Assembly: GCF_041154505.1 (NCBI RefSeq)
Contig: NZ_AP028672.1
Location: 558,001 to 622,000 of the forward strand
Reading direction: 5' to 3'
DNA from: Acidovorax sp. A79
GTDB taxonomy: Bacteria; Pseudomonadota; Gammaproteobacteria; Burkholderiales; Burkholderiaceae_C
Length of the DNA: 64,000 nt
The notes below the pieces were generated by a model. The model made no database searches. It was not told the origin of the DNA and worked only from the letters and a program-made list of their open reading frames with translations. Made by a program: the position numbers and the translations under genes. This document shows, piece by piece, positions 45,110-63,267 of the stretch (positions are counted from its first letter, which is position 1; the number at the start of each line of letters is the position of its first letter).

Positions 45110-46234
45110 TCAGATCCCGGCGGCGTGGTCCAGAAAAACACGGGCGCGGCGCGGCGTCACCACCAGCGTTTCGCCCTCCTTGAACCCCATCTCCTTGAAC
45201 TGCTGCGCAGGTATCTGCGCTTCGATCAAGTGTTCCGGGGACGCATTGTCCGCTGGTTTGTGATCCTGGGATGGAATAAGTTCCAGGCGCGCGATCGGGC
45301 CCACCACGATGGCACGGCTCAGCTGCGCCACGATGCCGCGCGGGCGGCCCTGGGCGTCGAGCCCGGCGCCCGGGGAGTAGCGCTCCACATCCAGGTCGTG
45401 GGGGCGCACATAGGCAAAAGCCTTGGCGTTCTGCGCGCCCTGGTGCTCGGGCGAGTCGATCTGCATGCCCTCCAGGTGCACCAGGCCCTCGTGCGCCCGG
45501 CCGTGGAACAGGTTCACGTCGCCCAGGAAGCCGTAGACGAACGGGCTCGCGGGCTGGTCCCACACCTGCTGGGGCGAGCCGCTTTGCTCGATGCGGCCCT
45601 GGTTGATCACGACCACCCGGTCGGCCACCTCCAGTGCCTCTTCCTGGTCGTGCGTGACGAAGATGCTGGTCACGTGCAGCTCGTCGTGCAGGCGGCGCAG
45701 CCAGCGGCGCAGTTCCTTGCGCACCTTGGCGTCCAGCGCGCCGAAGGGCTCGTCCAGCAGCAGCACCTTGGGCTCCACCGCCAGGGCGCGGGCCAGCGCG
45801 ATGCGCTGGCGCTGGCCGCCCGAGAGCTGCGAGGGGTAGCGGTCGGCCAGCCAGTCGAGCTGCACGAGCTTGAGCAGGTCGGTCACCTTCTGCTTGATCT
45901 GCGCCTCGCTCGGGCGCTCGCCACGGGGCTTCACGCGCAGGCCGAAGGCCACGTTCTCGAACACGGTCATGTGGCGGAACAGCGCGTAGTGCTGGAACAC
46001 GAAGCCCACGTTGCGCTCGCGCACGTGCACGTCGGTGGTGTCCTCGCCGCTGAAGTGGATGGTGCCCACATCGGCCGTCTCCAGGCCGGCGATGATGCGC
46101 AAGAGCGTGGTCTTGCCGCAGCCCGAGGGGCCGAGCAGCGCGATGAGTTCGCCCGATGCGATGTCCAGGCTCACGTCGCGCAGCGCCTGGAAGTCGCCGA
46201 ACTGCTTGCTGACGTTACGGATTTCAATGCTCAT
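45110..46234 (-). CDS. cysA: Sulfate/thiosulfate ABC transporter ATP-binding protein CysA
   Basis: ATPase of the sulfate importer, 374 residues: Walker [10 protein letters not shown], signature LSGGQRQR, Walker [13 protein letters not shown], and [16 protein letters not shown]. The C-terminal extension ([15 protein letters not shown] onwards) is the TOBE-like regulatory domain of CysA. It follows cysW by 12 bases and closes the sbp-cysT-cysW-cysA operon. Confidence 0.95.
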
Positions 46235-46246
46235 GGTCTTCTTCCT

Positions 46247-47155
46247 TCAGCGGACGGCTGGCGCGGGTGCGGGCCGCTCGGGGGGCAACTCGGCGGCGGC
46301 TTTCAAGGCCTGCTCGTTGCGGTGTTCGGCAATGGTCTTGATGACCAGCGTGACCAGGGCCAGCAAGGCCAGCAGCGATGCAGCGGCGAACGCGGCCACG
46401 GACTGGTACTCGTTGTAGAGAATTTCGACGTGCAGCGGAATGGTGTTGGTCTGCCCACGGATGTGGCCGGACACGACGGACACCGCGCCGAACTCGCCCA
46501 TGGCGCGCGCATTGCACAGGATCACGCCGTACAGCAGGCCCCATTTGATGTTGGGCAGCGTCACGTACCAGAAGGTCTGCCAGCCGGTGGCGCCCAGCAC
46601 GATGGCGGCCTGCTCTTCGTCGTTGCCCTGCGCCTGCATCAGCGGGATCAGCTCACGCGCGATGAACGGGAAGGTCACGAACACCGTGGCCAGCACGATG
46701 CCCGGCACGGCGAAGATGATCTTGATGTCATGCGCCTGCAGCCAGGGGCCGAACCAGCCCTGCGCGCCGAACATCAGCACGTAGATCAGGCCCGCCACCA
46801 CGGGAGAGACGGAAAACGGCAGGTCCACCAGCGTGGTCAGGAACGCCTTGCCCCTGAACTCGTACTTGGCGATGCACCAGGCGGCCGCGACGCCGAACAC
46901 GAGGTTCAGCGGCACGGCAATGACAGCGGTGATCAGCGTGAGCTTGATGGCCGCCCAGGCATCGGGCTCGCGCAGGCCTTCGAGGTAGGCCCCGAAGCCC
47001 TTGCGCAACGCCTCGGCGAACACGGCGGCCAGCGGCAGCACCAGGAACAGCAGCATGAAGGCCAGCGCGATGGTGATCAGCGTGTAGCGGACCCAGGGCG
47101 CTTCAGTCGTGCCCGCCTGTGCGCGGCGGATAGTCCGGGAGTTGTTGCCGCTCAT
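46247..47155 (-). CDS. cysW: Sulfate ABC transporter permease CysW
   Basis: Inner-membrane permease that pairs with CysT. The 302-residue product has about six hydrophobic segments and the family loop [40 protein letters not shown]. The ATG at 47155 overlaps the cysT stop by four bases. Length and motifs are normal; the C-terminal 20 residues are Pro/Ala-rich. Confidence 0.94.
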
Positions 47156-48003
47156 GCTGGAGCCCCCGCGTGGCGTCGCTGCCATGCCTGTAGTGCGTTG
47201 ATGATGAGCAGCAGGATGAACGAGATGACCAGCATGACCACGGCCACGGCGGTGGCGCCGGCGTAGTCGTACTGCTCGAGCTTGCCGATGATGATCAGCG
47301 GCGTGATTTCAGACACCATGGGCATGTTGCCAGCGATGAAGATCACCGAGCCGTATTCCCCCACCGCCCGCGCGAATGCCATGGCAAAGCCGGTGAGCAG
47401 CGCGGGCGTGATGGAGGGCAGGATGACCTTGGTGAAGGTCTGCAGACGCGTGGCGCCCAGGCAGGTGGCGGCCTCTTCCAGCTCTTTTTCGGCGTCTTCC
47501 AGCACGGGCTGCACGGTGCGCACCACGAACGGCAGGCCGATGAAGATGAGCGCGATCACGATGCCCGCGGGCTTGAACGCGAGCTGAATGCCCAGGGGTT
47601 CCAGGATGCTGCCGACCCAGCCGTTGCCGGCCAGCAAGGCGGTCAGCGAGATGCCGGCCACCGCCGTGGGCAGGGCGAACGGCAGGTCCACCAGTGCATC
47701 GACGATCTTCTTGCCCGGAAACTTGTAGCGCACCAGCACCCAGGCAATCAGCAGGCCGAACACCAGGTTGACCAGCGCCGCGAGGAACGAGGCCCCGAAG
47801 GTCAGCCGGTACGAGGCCATCACGCGCGGCGCGCTGATGGCCGCCCAGAACTGCTCCCAGGTCAGCGTGAAGGTCTTGAAGATCAGTGCCGACAGCGGGA
47901 TCAGCACGATGATGCTCAGATAGAAAAGCGTGTAGCCCAGGGTCAGCCCAAAGCCGGGCAATACCCTCCTAGCGCTTCTTGGTGCGCTTTTTTTACCGTT
48001 CAT
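47152..48003 (-). CDS. cysT: Sulfate ABC transporter permease CysT (CysU)
   Basis: Partner permease of CysW, 283 residues with about six hydrophobic segments and the loop [37 protein letters not shown]. The conserved family sequence begins at RRVLPGF. The 10 or so residues before it ([11 protein letters not shown]) are encoded by a copy of the dispersed repeat, so the start region was remodelled. No good ribosome-binding site is seen before the ATG at 48003. Confidence 0.93.
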
Positions 48004-48010
48004 ATGTTGT
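47961..48010. repeat. Dispersed repeat, copy 6 (partial), over the cysT start
   Basis: CCTCCTAGCGCTTCTTGGTG then CGCTTTTTTTACCG: the core AGCGCTT-N-GCGCTTTTT matches the other copies, with the outer arm shortened. It provides the first codons of cysT. Confidence 0.6.
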
Positions 48011-48097
48011 TATCCATTGCGCATCGTCGGTAGGAAAACCGGCGCGACCCAAGCCAGCAGACGCCGCGCAAGGGCCGCCCCGCGGCGCTGGCGTCGT

Positions 48098-48152
48098 CCC
48101 CCTTCCCGGCGATAGCCCAGAGAAGGGGGAAGCCGCACAGCGGCTCAGGGGG
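48098..48152. repeat. GC-rich repeat, family 2, copy 2, with inverted repeat
   Basis: GAAGGGGG (48122-48129) pairs with CCCCCTTC (48098-48105). It is followed by AAGCCGCACAGCGGCTCAGG, similar to 45081-45107. It fills the gap between sbp and cysT and may lower read-through or stabilise the sbp message. Confidence 0.55.
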
Positions 48153-48162
48153 TTGTCCACTA

Positions 48163-49167
48163 CTACTTGGCGCCGGGCGTGTAGAGCTTGTCGAACTGGC
48201 CGCCGTCGTTGAAGTGCACCTTCTGCGCTTCGGTCAGCGAACCGAAGTACTTGGCCACCGTGAACTGCTTGAGCGGCTTGAAGGTATCGGCGTACTTCTT
48301 GAGCACCGTTTCAGAACGCGGGCGGATCGCGTGCTTGGCGGCGATTTCCTGGGCTTCCTCGGAGTACAGGTAGTCCAGGTACGCCTTGGCCAGCTGGGCG
48401 GTGCCCTTCTTGGCCACGGTGCGTTCCACCACGGCCACGGGGTTCTCGGCCACCACGCTCACCGAGGGGTAGATGGCATCAACCTTGCCGGCGCCGAACT
48501 CGCGGTCGATGGAGACCACCTCGGATTCGAAAGTGATCAGCACATCGCCCTGATTGCGCTGCAGGAAGGTGGCCGTGGCATCGCGGCCGCCCTTGGCCAG
48601 GATGGGCACGTTCTTGTAGAGCTTGCCCACGAATTCGGCGGCCTGCGCCTCGGTGCCACCCTTTTCGCGCACGGCGCCCCAGGCGGCCAGGTAGGCATAG
48701 CGGCCGTTGCCGCCGGTCTTGGGGTTCACCACGATCACCTGCACACCGGGCTTGATCAGGTCTTCCCAGTCCTTGATGCCCTTGGGGTTGCCGTTGCGCA
48801 CCAGGAACAGCATGGTCGAGGTGGTGGGCGATGCGTCGTGCGGGAATTTCTTGGCCCAGTCCTTGGCGACCACGCCGCTGTCGGCGAGGAACTGCACGTC
48901 GGTCGTCGTATTCATGGTCACCACGTCGGCCGCCAGGCCGTCGTTCACGGCGCGCGCCTGGGCGCTGGAGCCGGCGTGCGACTGGTCGATCTTCACGTCC
49001 TGGCCGGTGGTCTTCTTGTAGTGGGCAGCGAAGGCGGCGTTGTAGTCCTTGTAGAACTCTCGGGCCACGTCGTACGACACGTTGAGCAGCGAATTCTGTG
49101 CAGCGGCCATGCCGCTGGCAGCCAGGGCCATGGTGGCCAGAAGGGTCTTGAGTTTCAAAGAGGTCAT
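48163..49167 (-). CDS. sbp: Sulfate-binding protein Sbp/CysP
   Basis: Periplasmic binding protein of the sulfate importer. Of 334 residues the first 23 are a signal peptide (LKTLLATMALAASGMAAAQ). The family signature follows: LLNVSYDVAREFYKDYN, DQSHAGSSAQARAV and NPKTGGNGRYAYLAAWG. The ATG at 49167 has GAAGG upstream. It is the first gene of the cys operon. Its upstream region holds one of three near-identical regulatory-looking sequences. Confidence 0.94.
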   Translation of the reverse strand: MTSLKLKTLLATMALAASGMAAAQNSLLNVSYDVAREFYKDYNAAFAAHYKKTTGQDVKIDQSHAGSSAQARAVNDGLAADVVTMNTTTDVQFLADSGVVAKDWAKKFPHDASPTTSTMLFLVRNGNPKGIKDWEDLIKPGVQVIVVNPKTGGNGRYAYLAAWGAVREKGGTEAQAAEFVGKLYKNVPILAKGGRDATATFLQRNQGDVLITFESEVVSIDREFGAGKVDAIYPSVSVVAENPVAVVERTVAKKGTAQLAKAYLDYLYSEEAQEIAAKHAIRPRSETVLKKYADTFKPLKQFTVAKYFGSLTEAQKVHFNDGGQFDKLYTPGAK

Positions 49168-49218
49168 GGTGCCTTCGCCCGAAAAGTACTGGAGATGCTC
49201 CATTGTGCGGAGCCGTGC

Positions 49219-49243
49219 TTAAAACTCAAAAGAATATATTCTT
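49219..49243 (-). promoter_or_regulatory. Shared sulfur-gene upstream motif, site A (sbp)
   Basis: TTAAAACTCAAAAGAATATA followed by TTC, with a 14-bp palindrome AAGAATATATTCTT at 49230-49243. It lies 52 bases upstream of the sbp start. It aligns with sites B (50737) and C (63210), giving WTAAAACYCAAAMGAATA. A CysB-type site is the natural guess because these are sulfur genes. Confidence 0.6.
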
Positions 49244-49338
49244 GTTAAATAATCAGCTATTGGAATATAGATTTTCAATGGCGGGCCGGCTGGTGATTGC
49301 CAGCGGGCCTGGCAAGCGTCCTGGCGACGGATTTCAAG

Positions 49339-50047: not shown

Positions 50048-50689
50048 TTACTTGTTGGGCTGGGGCGTGATGCGCAGGTAGGGGCGCACCGCCTTGAAGC
50101 CCTTGGGAAAGCGCAGCGCGATCTCGGCCGGGTCCTGCAGGCTGGGCACGATGATCACGTCGTCGCCGTCCCTCCAATTGGCGGGAGTGGCCACCTTGTG
50201 GCTGTCGGTGAGTTGCAGCGAGTCGATCACGCGCAGGATCTCGTCGAAATTGCGCCCCGTGCTGGCGGGGTAGGTGAAGGTGGTGCGGATGACCTTCTTG
50301 GGATCGATGATGAACACGCTGCGCACCGTGACCGTGGTCGATGCGTTGGGGTGGATCATGTCGTAGAGGTCGGCCACCTTCTTGTCCGCATCGGCCAGGA
50401 TGGGGAAGTTGACGGTGGTGTTCTGCGTGTCGTTGATGTCGCCCACCCAGCGGTTGTGCGAATCGACAGGGTCCACGCTCACGGCGATGGGCTTGACGTT
50501 GCGCTTTGCAAATTCGCCGCCCAGGGCAGCCGTTTTGCCCAGTTCGGTGGTGCAGACGGGCGTGAAATCGGCGGGGTGCGAGAACAGCACGACCCACGAA
50601 TCACCGGCCCATTCGTGGAAACGGATGGTGCCGGCGGTGGATTCCTGGGTGAAGTCGGGGGCGGTGTCGCCGAGTCGCAAGGTGGCCAT
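50048..50689 (-). CDS. 1-Cys peroxiredoxin (Prx6-type)
   Basis: Reduces peroxides with a single catalytic cysteine, C46 in HPADFTPVCTTELG. The 213 residues match the Prx6 group, including the C-terminal dimerisation region (ANWRDGDDVIIVPSLQDPAE). It is cytosolic. It carries upstream site B, shared with sbp and the encapsulin operon, which suggests it protects against peroxides when sulfur metabolism is switched. Confidence 0.93.
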   Translation of the reverse strand: MATLRLGDTAPDFTQESTAGTIRFHEWAGDSWVVLFSHPADFTPVCTTELGKTAALGGEFAKRNVKPIAVSVDPVDSHNRWVGDINDTQNTTVNFPILADADKKVADLYDMIHPNASTTVTVRSVFIIDPKKVIRTTFTYPASTGRNFDEILRVIDSLQLTDSHKVATPANWRDGDDVIIVPSLQDPAEIALRFPKGFKAVRPYLRITPQPNK

Positions 50690-50736: not shown

Positions 50737-50758
50737 TTAAAACCCAAACGAATATATT
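50737..50758 (-). promoter_or_regulatory. Shared sulfur-gene upstream motif, site B (peroxiredoxin)
   Basis: TTAAAACCCAAACGAATATA followed by TT, 48 bases upstream of the peroxiredoxin start. It differs from site A at only two positions over the first 22 bases. Confidence 0.6.
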
Positions 50759-50802
50759 GCTCTTACTTAATCGCCAAAACGTCTATAAAACAAGACGACC
50801 CG

Positions 50803-58301: not shown

Positions 58302-60359
58302 CTAGCCCGCGCGCCGCTGCCCGGCCAGGCGCTGCACCACGGCCACCAGGCGGTCGATCTCGTCGAAGGTGTTGTAGAACGCCAGCGAAGGCCGCACCGT
58401 GGTCTCCACGCCGAAGCGGCGCAGGATGGGCTGGGCACAGTGGTGGCCGGTGCGCACGGCGATGCCCTCCTCGTTGAGCGCCTTGCCCACCTCTTCCGTG
58501 GTGTAGCCCGCGAGCACGAAGGACATCACGCTGGCCTTGTCGTCGGCCGTGCCGATGAGCCGCACGCCGCGGATCGCACCCAGGTGGCGCATGCCGTAGA
58601 CCAGCAGTTCGTGCTCGTAGCGCGCGATGTTCTCGATGCCCACCCGGTTCACGTAGTCGATGGCGGCGCCCAGGCCCACGGCGTCGGCGATGTTGCCGGT
58701 GCCGGCCTCGAACTTGTTCGGGATGGGCTGGAACACCGTCTTCTCGAAGGTCACGTCGGCAATCATGTTGCCGCCGCCTTGCCAGGGCGGCATGTCTTCG
58801 AGCACCGCACGCTTGCCCCAGACCACGCCGATGCCAGTGGGTCCGAAGACCTTGTGGCCCGAGAACACGAAGAAGTCGGCCCCCAGGTCCTGCACGTCCA
58901 CCCGCCTGTGCGAGACCGACTGCGCGCCGTCGACCAGGGTCGTGGCGCCCGCCCGCCTGGCCAGGGCCACGATCTCCTTGACCGGCACCACGGTGCCCAG
59001 GGCATTGGAGACCTGGGTGACGGCGACGATCCTGGTGCGGTCGTTGAGCAGCTTCTGGTATTCGTCGAGCAGCACCTGGCCCGAGTCGTCCACCGGGATC
59101 ACGCGCAGGCGCGCTCCCTTGGCGGCGGCCAGCTGCTGCCAGGGCACGATGTTGGCATGGTGCTCAAGGTGGCTGACGATGATCTCGTCGCCCTCGCCCA
59201 CATGCTGCGCGCCCCAGCTCTTGGCCACCAGGTTGATGGCCTCGGTGGTGCCGCGCACGAAGATCACCTCGTTCACGTCGGGCGCATTGATGAAGCGCTG
59301 CACGCGCTGGCGTGCGCCCTCGTAGGCGTCCGTGGCACGGGCGGCCAGTTCATGCGCCGCACGGTGGATGTTGGAGTTCTCGTGCGCGTAGAAGTGGCTG
59401 ATGCGGTCGATGACCGACTGCGGCTTGTGCGTGGTGGCCGCATTGTCGAACCAGACGAGCTGGCGGCCATTCACGCGCTCCTGCAGCACCGGGAAGTCGC
59501 GGCGCACCGCATGCACGTCGAACGCGGGGTGGGCGCTGCGGTCGGCCTGCGGGACGCTGCCGGCAGCCGGGGCACGGCCGGGCGTGGTGTAGCCGCCGGG
59601 CAGCACCACGGCGTCGGCGAAGTAGAAACGCGGCTCGGTCGATGGCACCGTGCTGGGCACGCCGGTGCCGGCCGTGGGCGAGCCCACGCGCGGCACTTCG
59701 GGTGCGGCAAAAGGCAGGCGCGCCAGGGCATCGAGCCCGCCGGGAACGGCGCCATGCCCGTCGGGCGGTGCCACCTGCGGTGCGCGGTCGGCCGCCAGCG
59801 GGTGGCCATGGCGCTCACCGAGAAAGTAGTACGGCGATGCTGTCGATGGGACGGGTGGTGCGGAAGGCTGCGCCGCCTCGGGCACCCCCAGCACGCCGCT
59901 GCCAAAGCGCGGCTCGTAGGCCGGCAAGGTGCTGATCACCGAGTCGGGTACGCCGTTGCCAGCCACCGCATGAGGCAGCAGGGCCGGCGCACGGTGCGCC
60001 AGCGAGGCCAGCGGCGTGGGCGAGGCCGGCACCAGGTTGGCACCCGGCACCAGCCCTTGCGGGATGGGGGTGCCGGGCACGCCGGGGCCAAAGCCCGCCG
60101 GGCTGACCAGCGGCGAGCCGGCCGGTGCGATGTTGACGGGCGCCTGCACGCCAGGCGGCCAGGGCGTGCCCTGCCCCGCACCAGGCAGCGAGCCCGGTGG
60201 CGTGGAGGGCCGGCCTGCGGCCGGCCCGGCAAAGCGCGGCTCTTCGCCAGGCCGGGCCGCGAACAGGGCCGTCGCCAGCCCGGCCAGCAGCGCCGGGTCG
60301 ATCGGCGGCTGCAGCGTGGCGGGCACGCTGGCAGGAAGGGAGGATGGAGTGGTCACCAC
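58302..60359 (-). CDS. Cysteine desulfurase, encapsulin cargo, with long disordered N-terminus
   Basis: A 685-residue protein. The C-terminal 405 residues are a SufS/CsdA-type PLP enzyme that takes sulfur from cysteine: lysine K503 in FSGHKVFGPTG, and catalytic C641 in RTGHHCAQP. The first 280 residues are Pro/Ala/Gly-rich and probably disordered. EPRF occurs three times (40-43, 149-152, 242-245), along with LLAGLATALFAA and PYYFLGE. Such extensions in family 2A systems target the enzyme into the shell. The start is a GTG at 60359, nine bases after the encapsulin gene, with a weak ribosome-binding site. Confidence 0.93.
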   Translation of the reverse strand: MVTTPSSLPASVPATLQPPIDPALLAGLATALFAARPGEEPRFAGPAAGRPSTPPGSLPGAGQGTPWPPGVQAPVNIAPAGSPLVSPAGFGPGVPGTPIPQGLVPGANLVPASPTPLASLAHRAPALLPHAVAGNGVPDSVISTLPAYEPRFGSGVLGVPEAAQPSAPPVPSTASPYYFLGERHGHPLAADRAPQVAPPDGHGAVPGGLDALARLPFAAPEVPRVGSPTAGTGVPSTVPSTEPRFYFADAVVLPGGYTTPGRAPAAGSVPQADRSAHPAFDVHAVRRDFPVLQERVNGRQLVWFDNAATTHKPQSVIDRISHFYAHENSNIHRAAHELAARATDAYEGARQRVQRFINAPDVNEVIFVRGTTEAINLVAKSWGAQHVGEGDEIIVSHLEHHANIVPWQQLAAAKGARLRVIPVDDSGQVLLDEYQKLLNDRTRIVAVTQVSNALGTVVPVKEIVALARRAGATTLVDGAQSVSHRRVDVQDLGADFFVFSGHKVFGPTGIGVVWGKRAVLEDMPPWQGGGNMIADVTFEKTVFQPIPNKFEAGTGNIADAVGLGAAIDYVNRVGIENIARYEHELLVYGMRHLGAIRGVRLIGTADDKASVMSFVLAGYTTEEVGKALNEEGIAVRTGHHCAQPILRRFGVETTVRPSLAFYNTFDEIDRLVAVVQRLAGQRRAG

Positions 60360-60368
60360 GCGGCCGCT

Positions 60369-61301
60369 TTACTTGTAGGTGTCGGGGTAGTCGTGGTACT
60401 TGTTGATCTCCACGTCGTCCAGCACGGCCAGCGCATCGGGCGTGAGCACGGCCAGCGAGCAGTACAGCGAGATCAGGTAGGACGCGATGGCATGGTTGTT
60501 GATGCCCATGAAGCGCACCGACAGGCCGGGGCTCTGCTCGCCCGGCAGGCCGGGCTGGAACAGGCCGACCACGCCCTGGCGCTTGTCGCCCACGCGCAGC
60601 AGCAGGATCTTGCTTTTGCCGTCGGCCACGGGCACCTTGTCCGAAGGGATCAGCGGAATGCCGCGCCAGGTGATGAACTGCGAGCCGAACAGGCTCACCG
60701 TGGGCGGCGGCGTGCCACGGCGCGTGGCTTCGCGGCCGAAGGCGGCGATCGCCAGCGGGTGGGCCAGGAAGAAGGCGGGCTCCTTCCAGACCTTGGTGAG
60801 CAGCTCGTCCAGGTCGTCCGGCGTGGGCGCGCCGGTGAGCGGAAACACGCGCTGCTCTTCCGTCACCTGGGCCAGCAGGCCGTAGTCGGGGTTGTTGATG
60901 AGCTCGCTCTCCTGGTTTTCCTTGATCGTCTCGATCGTCAGGCGCAGCTGTTCCTTGATCTGGTCGTGCGGGCTGCTGTACAGGTCGGAGATGCGGGTGT
61001 GCACGTCGAGCACGGTGCTCACGGCATTCAGGAAGAACTCGCGCGGGTTCTCTTCGTAGTCCACGAAGGTGCGCGGCAACTGGTTCTCTTCCTCGCGGGC
61101 GGTGCAGGTGACCTTGATCAGCTCGGGGTTCTTGACCTGGTTGAGGCGGTAGATGCCTGCCTCCACCGGCACCCACTGCAGCAGGTGCGTGAGCCAGCGC
61201 GGCGAGATGGTCGAGAGTTGTGCGGTGGTCTTGGTCGCGTTGGCAAGTTGCCGCGCTGCGTTGTCGCCCAGGGCGGTCGTGCCGCCCACTGTTGCCGTCA
61301 T
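60369..61301 (-). CDS. srpI: Family 2A encapsulin shell protein (SrpI-like)
   Basis: The 310-residue protein has the HK97-like encapsulin family 2 features. It opens with a family 2 N-terminal arm (ALGDNAARQLANATKTTAQL), then ISPRWLTHLLQWVPVEAGIY, YEENPREFFLNAVSTVLDVH, PTVSLFGSQFITWRGIPLIP and VRFMGINNHAIASYLISLYC. No cyclic-nucleotide-binding insert is present, which makes it family 2A, not 2B. It should self-assemble into a closed shell. GGAG lies seven bases before the ATG. The gene order and desulfurase cargo fit sulfur metabolism. The match to SrpI is from memory and not a search. Confidence 0.93.
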   Translation of the reverse strand: MTATVGGTTALGDNAARQLANATKTTAQLSTISPRWLTHLLQWVPVEAGIYRLNQVKNPELIKVTCTAREEENQLPRTFVDYEENPREFFLNAVSTVLDVHTRISDLYSSPHDQIKEQLRLTIETIKENQESELINNPDYGLLAQVTEEQRVFPLTGAPTPDDLDELLTKVWKEPAFFLAHPLAIAAFGREATRRGTPPPTVSLFGSQFITWRGIPLIPSDKVPVADGKSKILLLRVGDKRQGVVGLFQPGLPGEQSPGLSVRFMGINNHAIASYLISLYCSLAVLTPDALAVLDDVEINKYHDYPDTYK

Positions 61302-61379
61302 GTGAGGCTCCGTATCAGAAAGGTTGGTAAACGAACAGGTTTCGATTCCCAGCCAGTGTCGGATTCCCCCGCTATCGCT

Positions 61380-61652
61380 TCAACATGCTATAGCCGCCAA
61401 TCGCGTGCCTTTCAGCACATGGGCGCTGTTCAATTCGTCGCAATGTCCGAGCAGCGTGGCACTGCTCACGCCCAGGGCCTGCGAGAGCTTGTCAATGGTG
61501 ACCAGCGAGGCAATGGCGCGGCCCCGCTCGATCTCGCCCACATAGGAGCGGTTCAGGTCGGCATGCTCGGCCAGTTGCTCCTGCGACCAGCCGCGCGCCT
61601 CGCGCAGGCGCCGCACGGCCGTGCCGAAACTGCGTACCAGCACCTCACTCAT
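61380..61652 (-). CDS. XRE family DNA-binding protein, 90 aa
   Basis: A short protein that is nearly all helix-turn-helix: FGTAVRRLREARGWSQEQLA, HADLNRSYVGEIERGRAIAS, and LSQALGVSSATLLGH. It overlaps the serine acetyltransferase stop by four bases (ATGA) and lies 78 bases before the encapsulin gene. It may repress or tune the shell and cargo genes. A C-terminal tail of about 15 residues has no known motif. Confidence 0.88.
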   Translation of the reverse strand: MSEVLVRSFGTAVRRLREARGWSQEQLAEHADLNRSYVGEIERGRAIASLVTIDKLSQALGVSSATLLGHCDELNSAHVLKGTRLAAIAC

Positions 61653-62584
61653 GCCACGCCCACCCTGGGTTCGTCGCCGTCGTGGTGCCCGTTGTGGCGC
61701 GACAGGGCCTGGGTCACGTTGCCGCCCGCGGGCACGTCGTGCGTGATCCACACATTGCCGCCAATGGTGGCGCCGCGCCCCAGCGTCACCCGGCCCAGCA
61801 CGGTGGCGCCGGCGTAGATGACCACGTCGTCCTCCACCACCGGGTGGCGTGGCTGGCCCTTCTGCAAGTGCCCATCCTCGTCCGTGGGAAAGCGCTTGGC
61901 GCCCAGCGTGACGGCCTGGTAGACACGCACGCGCTCGCCGATCACCGCGGTCTCGCCGATCACGACGCCCGTGCCGTGGTCGATGAAAAAGCCCGCGCCG
62001 ATCTGCGCGCCGGGGTGGATGTCGATGCCGGTCTGCGCATGGGCCTGCTCGGCCACGATGCGCGCCAGCAGCGGCAGCTCCAGCTGGTACAGCGTGTGCG
62101 CCAGGCGGTGGTGGATCATGGCCAGGATGCCGGGGTAGCACAGCAGCACCTCGTCCACGCTGCGCGCGGCCGGATCGCCGTGGTAGGCGGCCAGCACGTC
62201 GCTGTCGAGCAGGCTGCGGATCTCGGGCAGCGAGGTGGCGAAGCTGCGGGCCGTCTGCACGGCGCGCTTTTCGATGTTCTGCTCTTCCACCGGCTGGTGG
62301 CGCAGCACATAACGCAACTCCAGCCGGATCTGCGCCAGCAGCGCATGCAAGGCGGCGTCCAGCGTGTGGCCGACGTAGAAGTCCTCGCTCTCCTGGCGCA
62401 GGTCGGGTGGGCCCAGGCGCATGGGAAACAGCACGCCCTTGAGCTTGTCGACGATATCGGCCAGCGCGTCGCGCGATGGGAACTCGCGCCCGCCCGGCTC
62501 CTGGGAGCGCTTTTGCAGGCTGCGCCAGTCGCGGCGCACGGCGTGCAGGGACTGCACGATGGGTTCGATGTTGAAGACGGCCAT
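61649..62584 (-). CDS. cysE: Serine O-acetyltransferase (EpsC/CysE type)
   Basis: Makes O-acetylserine, the acceptor for sulfide in cysteine synthesis. The 311-residue protein has an N-terminal helical domain and a left-handed beta-helix of hexapeptide repeats: IDIHPGAQIGAGFFIDHGTG, VVIGETAVIGERVRVYQAVT. The catalytic histidine lies in DIHPG or DHGTG. It is the EpsC form found with family 2A encapsulins. The C-terminus is NVTQALSRHNGHHDGDEP. Confidence 0.9.
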   Translation of the reverse strand: MAVFNIEPIVQSLHAVRRDWRSLQKRSQEPGGREFPSRDALADIVDKLKGVLFPMRLGPPDLRQESEDFYVGHTLDAALHALLAQIRLELRYVLRHQPVEEQNIEKRAVQTARSFATSLPEIRSLLDSDVLAAYHGDPAARSVDEVLLCYPGILAMIHHRLAHTLYQLELPLLARIVAEQAHAQTGIDIHPGAQIGAGFFIDHGTGVVIGETAVIGERVRVYQAVTLGAKRFPTDEDGHLQKGQPRHPVVEDDVVIYAGATVLGRVTLGRGATIGGNVWITHDVPAGGNVTQALSRHNGHHDGDEPRVGVA

Positions 62585-62634
62585 GGGGAAAGGGAAGCTG
62601 TGGTTCAGTCGTGGAGGCGGGCCGTGCCCCGGGG

Positions 62635-63126
62635 CTAGTCCTGGATCCAGGGAAGGTTGTGAAAGCGCCAGCCATCGGCATGGCCGCGCTGCTTGTGGCC
62701 ATCGATCTCGCCCTCGAAGCCTTCGAGCACGTTGAAGACGCGGGTGAAGCCGGCCTTGGCCGCCGCCTCGGCCGCCAGGGCCGAGCGCTTGCCGCTGCGG
62801 CACAGCAGCAGCGCCGTGGCCTCCTTGCCGCCGTGGCTGGCCAGGCGGGCCTCCAGCTCGCGCACGAAGCGCGGGTTGCGCTGCAGGGCGGTGCCCGTGG
62901 CCCAGGGCACGTGCAGGCTGTCCGGCACCTGGCCGACGAACTTCAGCTCTTCGGCCGAGCGCACGTCCACCAGCACGGCATCGCCGGCCAGGACGAGTTT
63001 CCACGCCACGGTGGGCGCAACGCCGCCCGCATAGGGCAGGCCGGACGCCAGTGCGACCGAGCGGGCAGATTCCAATTCGTGTGCGAGCACAGCGTCCTGG
63101 GTGTCCTGGATGGCGGATGAAAGCAT
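62635..63126 (-). CDS. Rhodanese-like sulfurtransferase
   Basis: A 163-residue single-domain rhodanese. Active cysteine C109 is in LLCRSGKRS; structural motifs VLVDVRSAEELKFVGQVPDS and HVPWATG lie before it. It can carry sulfane sulfur as a persulfide, either for the desulfurase product or to detoxify. It is the first gene of the encapsulin operon, 50 bases before the acetyltransferase. Site C of the shared upstream motif lies in front of it. Confidence 0.92.
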   Translation of the reverse strand: MLSSAIQDTQDAVLAHELESARSVALASGLPYAGGVAPTVAWKLVLAGDAVLVDVRSAEELKFVGQVPDSLHVPWATGTALQRNPRFVRELEARLASHGGKEATALLLCRSGKRSALAAEAAAKAGFTRVFNVLEGFEGEIDGHKQRGHADGWRFHNLPWIQD

Positions 63127-63209
63127 GGCAGGGGTCCTTGAGGCTAGGGTTTCGCAGCCCTCATGGGCGGGGCTGCCGTGAACAATGTGTTCACTCTAGA
63201 ACCCTTCTC

Positions 63210-63231
63210 ATAAAACCCAAAAGAATAAAAT
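63210..63231 (-). promoter_or_regulatory. Shared sulfur-gene upstream motif, site C (encapsulin operon)
   Basis: ATAAAACCCAAAAGAATAAA then AT, 84 bases upstream of the rhodanese start. It aligns with sites A and B. A weaker repeat TATAAAACCAAAAC follows at about 63240. The 63127-63267 gap has no gene. Confidence 0.55.
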
Positions 63232-63267
63232 TTGGTTTCTATAAAACCAAAACATCCTTGAGTTTGT

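Follow-up and report, generated by a model that had tools for sequence, protein, structure and literature searches.

In the 64,000-nucleotide stretch of the Acidovorax sp. A79 genome analysed here (hereafter the window), five genes on the minus strand (58302-63126) make up an encapsulin operon of family 2A, which is probably expressed in two stages: from a sulfur-limitation promoter, P1, and then from an internal promoter, P2, that is activated by the operon's own XRE regulator and serves the shell and cargo genes. Central to this proposal is a short DNA element, O2, which forms the 3' end of the XRE gene and runs into the -35 box of P2. Comparison of related loci establishes the gene identities, the P2 element, its conservation at the level of DNA, its tie to XRE and a box at P1. 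A fuller version of the proposal, to which we would give an even chance, is a dedicated two-promoter encapsulin switch, in which a controller-like regulator is expressed from a sulfur-starvation promoter and turns on an internal promoter lying in the end of its own gene, so that the rhodanese and acetyltransferase appear before the shell and cargo; in many relatives it would also switch off the promoter that drives it.

The first-pass annotation had described five genes at this place, and all were recovered with the identities that it gave:

62635..63126, minus strand, rhodanese of 163 residues, single domain, with a CRSGKRS active-site loop (PF00581, 47.4 bits; cut-off 22.2)
61649..62584, minus strand, EpsC-type serine O-acetyltransferase of 311 residues, ATG at 62584 (NF041874, 165.3 bits; cut-off 150)
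61380..61652, minus strand, XRE/HTH_3 regulator of 90 residues, controller-protein-like, overlapping the acetyltransferase gene by four bases (PF01381, 58 bits; cut-off 23)
60369..61301, minus strand, family 2A encapsulin shell protein of 310 residues (NF041162, 525.9 bits; cut-off 380; solved structure 8t6r at 5.6e-167)
58302..60359, minus strand, SufS-type cysteine desulfurase cargo of 685 residues, GTG start (NF041166, 915.6 bits; cut-off 800)

The four-base overlap that had been reported is the ATGA shared by the XRE and acetyltransferase genes, and the operon is of the family 2A desulfurase type, its shell and cargo both scoring above the NCBI curated cut-offs. While every identity stood, the annotation gave XRE no role, yet it is there that a predicted layer of control, unreported in the literature searched, would sit. 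For comparison, 111 loci were oriented by the shell gene, L001 being the own genome and L002-L111 the 110 related loci. The order rhodanese, acetyltransferase, XRE, shell, desulfurase holds for the genes matched by tblastn in the related loci, so the operon is not a chance arrangement; some locus stretches stop short of the rhodanese or the desulfurase, and order was counted where the stretch reaches. The same five genes stand in the NCBI annotation of a Variovorax sp. PBL-E5 plasmid. An XRE gene is present in 93 of the 110 related loci (94 of 111 with the own genome), and a profile built from the 94 XRE sequences found none in the other 17.

The last codons of the XRE gene read TTGRYGGCTATAGCMTGTTGA, the end of which starts the -35 box of P2, the predicted promoter for shell and cargo. 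The parts of this region are:

61380..61400, minus strand, operator element O2, TTGGCGGCTATAGCATGTTGA, encoding LAAIAC-stop at the XRE 3' end (conservation, codon test)
61386-61395, minus strand, palindromic core of O2, centred at about -42.5 of P2 (sequence)
61378..61383, minus strand, predicted P2 -35 box TTGAAG, with the XRE stop codon inside its TTGA (comparison of loci)
61355..61360, minus strand, predicted P2 -10 box GACACT, after a 17-base spacer (comparison of loci)

The value of -42.5 assumes a P2 start set seven bases after the -10 box, near 61348. O2 lies near the XRE stop, within six mismatches of the 21-base seed, in all 94 XRE-bearing loci (23 of them exact), and ten of its 21 columns are invariant. 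None of the 17 XRE-lacking loci has it, the best place in the 400 bases before their shell genes showing at least seven mismatches; a six-mismatch place exists elsewhere in the stretch of one of them, L088. Among 1880 shuffles of the XRE-bearing regions, fewer than seven mismatches were never reached. Many of the loci are near relatives, and these counts are not independent. The best -10 stands at a spacing of 17 in 78 of the 94 loci and of 18 in the other 16, and its commonest form, GACACT (42/94), is weak.

It is the codon usage of O2 that reveals what is being conserved. The element lies in the XRE reading frame in 68 of the 94 loci, where it gives the protein its final residues, usually L-x-A-I-A-C. 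The codon at the isoleucine position of this tail is ATA in 67 of the 68 (ATG in the exception), as against 41 of 2693 isoleucine codons elsewhere, and the tail cysteine is TGT in 55 of 55, as against 15 of 307 cysteine codons elsewhere, where elsewhere means the remainder of XRE and the rhodanese, acetyltransferase and shell genes of the same loci. In the window itself, none of the 66 isoleucines in the four operon genes besides XRE is encoded by ATA. In the remaining 26 loci the XRE frame stops upstream of the end of O2 and the DNA is still kept; moreover, glycine, serine or arginine replaces the tail cysteine in 13 of the 68 in-frame loci, and the bases that follow stay fixed. The codon choice and the 26 out-of-frame loci thus indicate that selection acts on the DNA of O2.

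The tie between O2 and XRE extends across genomes. In a sample of 299 genomes of the family the shell is found in 56, of which 38 have both XRE and O2 and 18 have neither. The exact pattern GBCKATAGYMNGTTGA occurs at 47 places in these genomes, 35 of them 91-148 bases upstream of a shell match and on its strand. The other 12 lie far from shells; since the reversed pattern occurs at 24 places in the same genomes (a hand count), they are no more than chance would give, and the four of the 12 that were opened have neither XRE nor an operon gene nearby. Over 137 loci, near-copies included, 106 have both XRE and O2 and 31 have neither, 105 of the 106 coming from the scan and L191 being added by hand, as its split shell had misplaced the scan. 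A 130-row tree, built by a quick method, requires 12 changes of the XRE label, and in nine of nine independent pairs on well-supported branches O2 follows XRE (p 0.0039). Loci fetched later agree: the XRE-bearing L278 and L280 carry O2 with one and three mismatches, and in the distant XRE-lacking L279 and L281 the best place has seven and eight. A search for an O2 regulon elsewhere in the own genome was dropped, as there is one exact site, and allowing up to three mismatches gives 42 places where the reversed control gives 33.

The regulator itself resembles the controller (C) proteins of restriction-modification systems. Its nearest solved structures by sequence are C.BclI (2.4e-11) and C.AhdI (3.1e-10), and a fold search with its predicted model (mean predicted local distance difference test, pLDDT, of 89, six of the last seven residues being below 50) places C.BclI at ranks 1-3 and C.AhdI at rank 4, followed by ClgR. 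The template modelling score of C.BclI against the model is 0.92 by target length and 0.77 by query length. The fold neighbours also include the repressors SinR and DdrO, and the relatives in PHROGs include phage repressors. Residues 23-25 read S-Q-E and are kept in 94, 94 and 91 of the 94 loci; in C proteins this is said to be the motif that contacts sigma (PMC4824078). C proteins are described as activating at low level and repressing at high level (PMC4824078; PMC3695507), from palindromic operators that often have a TAT centre and outer TG...CA (PMC3115060). XRE thus shares size, fold and S-Q-E with C.BclI, C.AhdI, C.Esp1396I and C.PvuII, and has a predicted palindromic operator, as do proteins of this kind that can both activate and repress (PMC3695507). 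However, its gene does not lie downstream of the promoter that it is thought to activate, and the operator core is GGCTATAGCC as against GACTtatAGTC of the C proteins. Neither the operon nor the scan of three flanking genes showed a restriction or methylase gene, and XRE is therefore likened to C proteins in its working and not filed as one. It is probably a small dimer of the controller-protein kind, lacking a sensor domain.

The first of the two promoters is marked by a box, motif A, upstream of the rhodanese gene, which recurs near the sulfate importer of the window:

63218..63245, minus strand, P1 activator box (motif A), the window's best at a score of 38.0 with a matrix trained without the window
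63193..63198, minus strand, predicted P1 -10 box TAGAGT, its A and T (second and sixth base) fixed in 59/59 aligned loci
45110..49203, minus strand, sulfate importer sbp-cysT-cysW-cysA, about 9 kb from the operon and on the same strand (TIGR00971 387.3, TIGR02139 424.3, TIGR02140 428.0 and TIGR00968 405.6 bits, all above cut-off)
49227..49254, minus strand, second-best motif A site, directly upstream of sbp, score 15.2
50745..50772, minus strand, third-best motif A site, score 14.9, directly upstream of a peroxiredoxin gene at 50048-50689 (NF009668, 219.5 bits; cut-off 211)

Upstream of the rhodanese gene, TTTTTATTCGTTTG occurs within four mismatches in 64 of 79 loci and in 128 of 1580 shuffles, and the -10 could be aligned in 59 of the loci. 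The matrix was built from 51 distinct sites, with the window and L002 left out, and its background, taken as the best score over 33 loci of about 3 kb each, is 13.4; the own genome's other sbp gene has a site scoring 15.2. Upstream of importer genes motif A beats all 50 local shuffles at 8 of 20 loci in one set and at 23 of 30 in another, three of the latter (L250, L252 and L254) being at contig ends, where the scanned stretch was misplaced. The pattern WWTATTCKTTNG has four places in the genome, three of them in the window, and as it was built from those three sites this shows only its rarity. Among 60 genomes searched for the importer, 12 bear a shell, and in six of these, the own genome included, sbp lies on the same strand no more than 15 kb away, three upstream and three downstream (coordinates compared by eye). 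Because its box is common to sbp, P1 looks like a sulfur-limitation promoter, and its regulator is probably of the LysR/CysB type, also serving the sulfate importer. Perhaps the peroxiredoxin gene, to judge from its P1-like box, belongs to the same sulfur-limitation group.

In many relatives XRE may have a second target. The sequence TGRTGGCTATNGCCAYCA, called O1, stands at the P1 start of many XRE-bearing loci and has the same core as O2. Within three mismatches it is found in 40 of 72 XRE-bearing loci, one of seven XRE-lacking loci and one of 1580 shuffles, and when the P2 regions of the 94 loci are scored with a matrix made of 37 O1 sites, O2 comes out on top in 83. The shared core, together with the choice of O2 by the O1 matrix, suggests that XRE binds both, and hence that in many relatives, though not in the window, XRE also represses P1. 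What the window has over its predicted P1 start, near 63186, is a different element:

63178..63194, minus strand, perfect palindrome GTGAACA-CAT-TGTTCAC, unrelated to O1 (sequence)

This palindrome is also present in the same-species genome L197, is absent from L002, and may take the place of O1 as a site for a different regulator. A search of the own genome with the O1 palindrome at three mismatches gave 888 places against 167 in the control, too many to use.

Taken together, the proposed course would begin with sulfur limitation, under which a regulator would fire P1 and the rhodanese, the acetyltransferase and XRE would be made. XRE would then bind to O2, within the 3' end of the XRE gene and centred at about -42.5, and help RNA polymerase to start at P2, whose transcription would yield the shell and the desulfurase cargo; the shell would enclose the SufS-type desulfurase through its disordered front, with the acetyltransferase contributing to cysteine supply and the rhodanese to sulfane-sulfur transfer. 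The binding of O2 by XRE, activation rather than repression, the timing and the sulfur chemistry are what we infer.

Several observations weigh against this course. That O2 touches the -35 box also fits repression, most small XRE proteins act as repressors, and the S-Q-E motif is common among HTH_3 proteins generally. Lying in the XRE 3' end, O2 can be deleted when the gene is lost, and the matching presence and absence of the two are thus weaker evidence than they look; this weakness does not touch the codon test or the 26 loci in which the frame ends early. At P1, O1 is found in only 40 of the 72 XRE-bearing loci, yet also in one of the seven that lack XRE; it is lacking in the window and L002 (best places with seven and six mismatches), and its matrix fails to pick out O2 at 11 of the 94 loci, one of which is that of the window. 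Motif A stands out at 31 of 50 importer genes and not at all of them; in the own genome it stays below the background best at four other sulfur-gene loci, with scores of 9.1 at cysI, 8.6 at the housekeeping cysE region and only 1.4 and 3.4 at two further sulfite/nitrite-reductase loci. The window's LysR gene falls below its best NCBIfam cut-off (304.8 against 380), with no CysB model among the 25 matches listed, and the literature search gave nothing usable on the CysB box.

Turned around, the same parts could make a repressor circuit, with XRE on O2 blocking the -35 box, and so keeping shell and cargo off, until sulfur stress removes it, and P1 acting as the main promoter. This we consider unlikely, although O2 does reach into the -35 box in 94 of 94 aligned loci and SinR, DdrO and phage repressors are among the relatives of XRE, since the first solved relatives by both sequence and fold are C proteins, able to activate and repress, an activator in contact with sigma would suit the centre at about -42.5 and the constant distance from the -35 box, and the commonest -10 is weak. 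That P2 does no work at all, the operon being an ordinary one of family 2A, transcribed from P1 alone, and O2 a decayed or structural sequence, appears very improbable: ten invariant columns, conserved -10 positions at the right spacing and the nine concordant tree pairs would all be unexplained. Some lineages can do without P2, since XRE-lacking relatives have no O2 and still keep shell and cargo, and in most cases the rhodanese and acetyltransferase. An extremely improbable alternative takes the LAAIAC tail as a peptide feature, either a persulfide-sensing cysteine or a docking tail, and not as a DNA site. A cysteine ends 55 of the 68 in-frame tails and would suit a sulfur operon, but the codons are fixed against the habit of the same genes, 26 loci lose the peptide and keep the DNA, the cysteine is replaced in 13 loci with the next bases unchanged, and the tail is predicted to be disordered; a persulfide-sensing C-terminal cysteine in particular was rejected on the codon choice and the out-of-frame loci. 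The idea that the acetyltransferase serves XRE as a sensor partner was also considered and is weakened by L062, which has XRE and O2 and no acetyltransferase match.

The family 2A desulfurase operon is already published and is not new in kind. The accessible part of PMC8346489 counts 1281 such operons, among whose accessory genes serine acetyltransferases and rhodaneses show the strongest enrichment, and its proposal agrees in part with the sulfur flow of the first-pass annotation, in which cysteine goes in, persulfide or elemental sulfur is kept inside, acetylserine makes new cysteine and the rhodanese moves sulfane sulfur. In the Synechococcus elongatus system, as far as the available text of PMC8049743 goes, the disordered front loads the cargo and expression rises in sulfate-lacking cells. 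The operon in the window resembles this SrpI system in its shell, its disordered-front cargo with a PYYFL-type motif and its acetyltransferase and rhodanese neighbours (PMC8049743 and PMC8346489, in the same parts). The S. elongatus pANL order is cysK-epsC-srpI-cyd-rhodanese, and its locus differs in that the regulator nearby is of the Rrf2 family and that neither an XRE match nor O2 is present (best place with seven mismatches). Azospirillum brasilense (L281) differs in that a divergent 200-residue XRE-family gene, unlike this XRE, lies beside its family 2A shell, with no O2 (best place with eight). The likeness to proteobacterial sulfur-starvation regulons of the CysB/SsuR type lies in the P1 box common to sbp, the comparison being one of box sharing only. 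Reportedly, according to a 2024 paper, family 2A particles store elemental sulfur.

In the literature searched, supplements and subscription papers aside, no description was found of an XRE regulator or a promoter of a family 2A operon, nor, in the literature searched, of how proteobacterial desulfurase encapsulins are switched on; the accessible part of PMC8987985 mentions encapsulin, XRE and transcriptional regulator but does not connect them. The present comparison offers a short, exactly placed DNA element and a candidate regulator in many Burkholderiales. If the proposal is true, shell assembly would be tied to sulfur limitation, and a timing circuit of the restriction-system type would serve a metabolic compartment and the building of an organelle. 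It would also be a case of how a promoter hidden in coding sequence can fix the last residues of a protein.

The shell is SrpI-like, as had been claimed, and the concern that it might match phage capsids is answered by its best solved relatives, which are encapsulin shells (8t6r as given above, and SrpI 6x8m at 1.6e-144). A phage capsid was accordingly rejected, PHROGs adding only one weak family of unknown function (7.4e-4). The only matches in phage collections are two Acinetobacter records of 330-380 kb (CAKLQH020000001.1 and CAKLQF020000001.1) that also carry the desulfurase and are probably bacterial DNA. Pfam finds SrpI-like 62-300 only on the 310 residues and no cyclic-nucleotide domain, unlike family 2B; the 2B model NF041163 is also above its cut-off (414.1 against 400), with a best stretch that covers model positions 216-449 of 450 only. 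The protein is identical in the close relative Acidovorax sp. Root219. As for the acetyltransferase, the general cysE model TIGR01172 is not reached (171.8 against a cut-off of 210.65), and the own genome has a second paralogue, another cysE with 240.8 bits, at G000 C1:4826713.

The assignment of the cargo as SufS-type is borne out by TIGR01979 (558.6 bits against 475.1); the stricter SufS equivalog NF006791 is not reached (497.5 against 661). The catalytic residues are SGHK at 500 and C641 in a SufS-type HHC motif, C641 being the single cysteine in the 685 residues. The disordered front of about 280 residues that had been noted is also there:

59523..60359, minus strand, putative cargo-loading front of the desulfurase, residues 1-279 (composition; alignment of 108 sequences)

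It is rich in proline (20%), alanine (17%) and glycine (12%) and has no cysteine and no lysine, its disorder being judged from this composition only. Residues 174-180 read ASPYYFL, resembling the AASPYYFLDG motif in the accessible text of PMC8049743. In the 108 aligned sequences the conserved blocks of the front lie at about residues 21-38, 70-160, 176-180 and 246-261. The proline- and glycine-rich block 70-160 is strongly conserved and goes beyond the two short motifs given in the same text, so the disordered front is far from free to vary. An enzyme so poor in cysteine may fit one that is kept in a space rich in sulfane sulfur. Across 76 related loci, 67 have no cysteine in the region before the catalytic motif and 53 have exactly one in the catalytic part, one locus being frame-shifted. 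Genes that appear broken, through either decay or sequencing error, are the split shell of L191 (G003), the G039 shell with an internal TAG and the frame-shifted desulfurase of L035.

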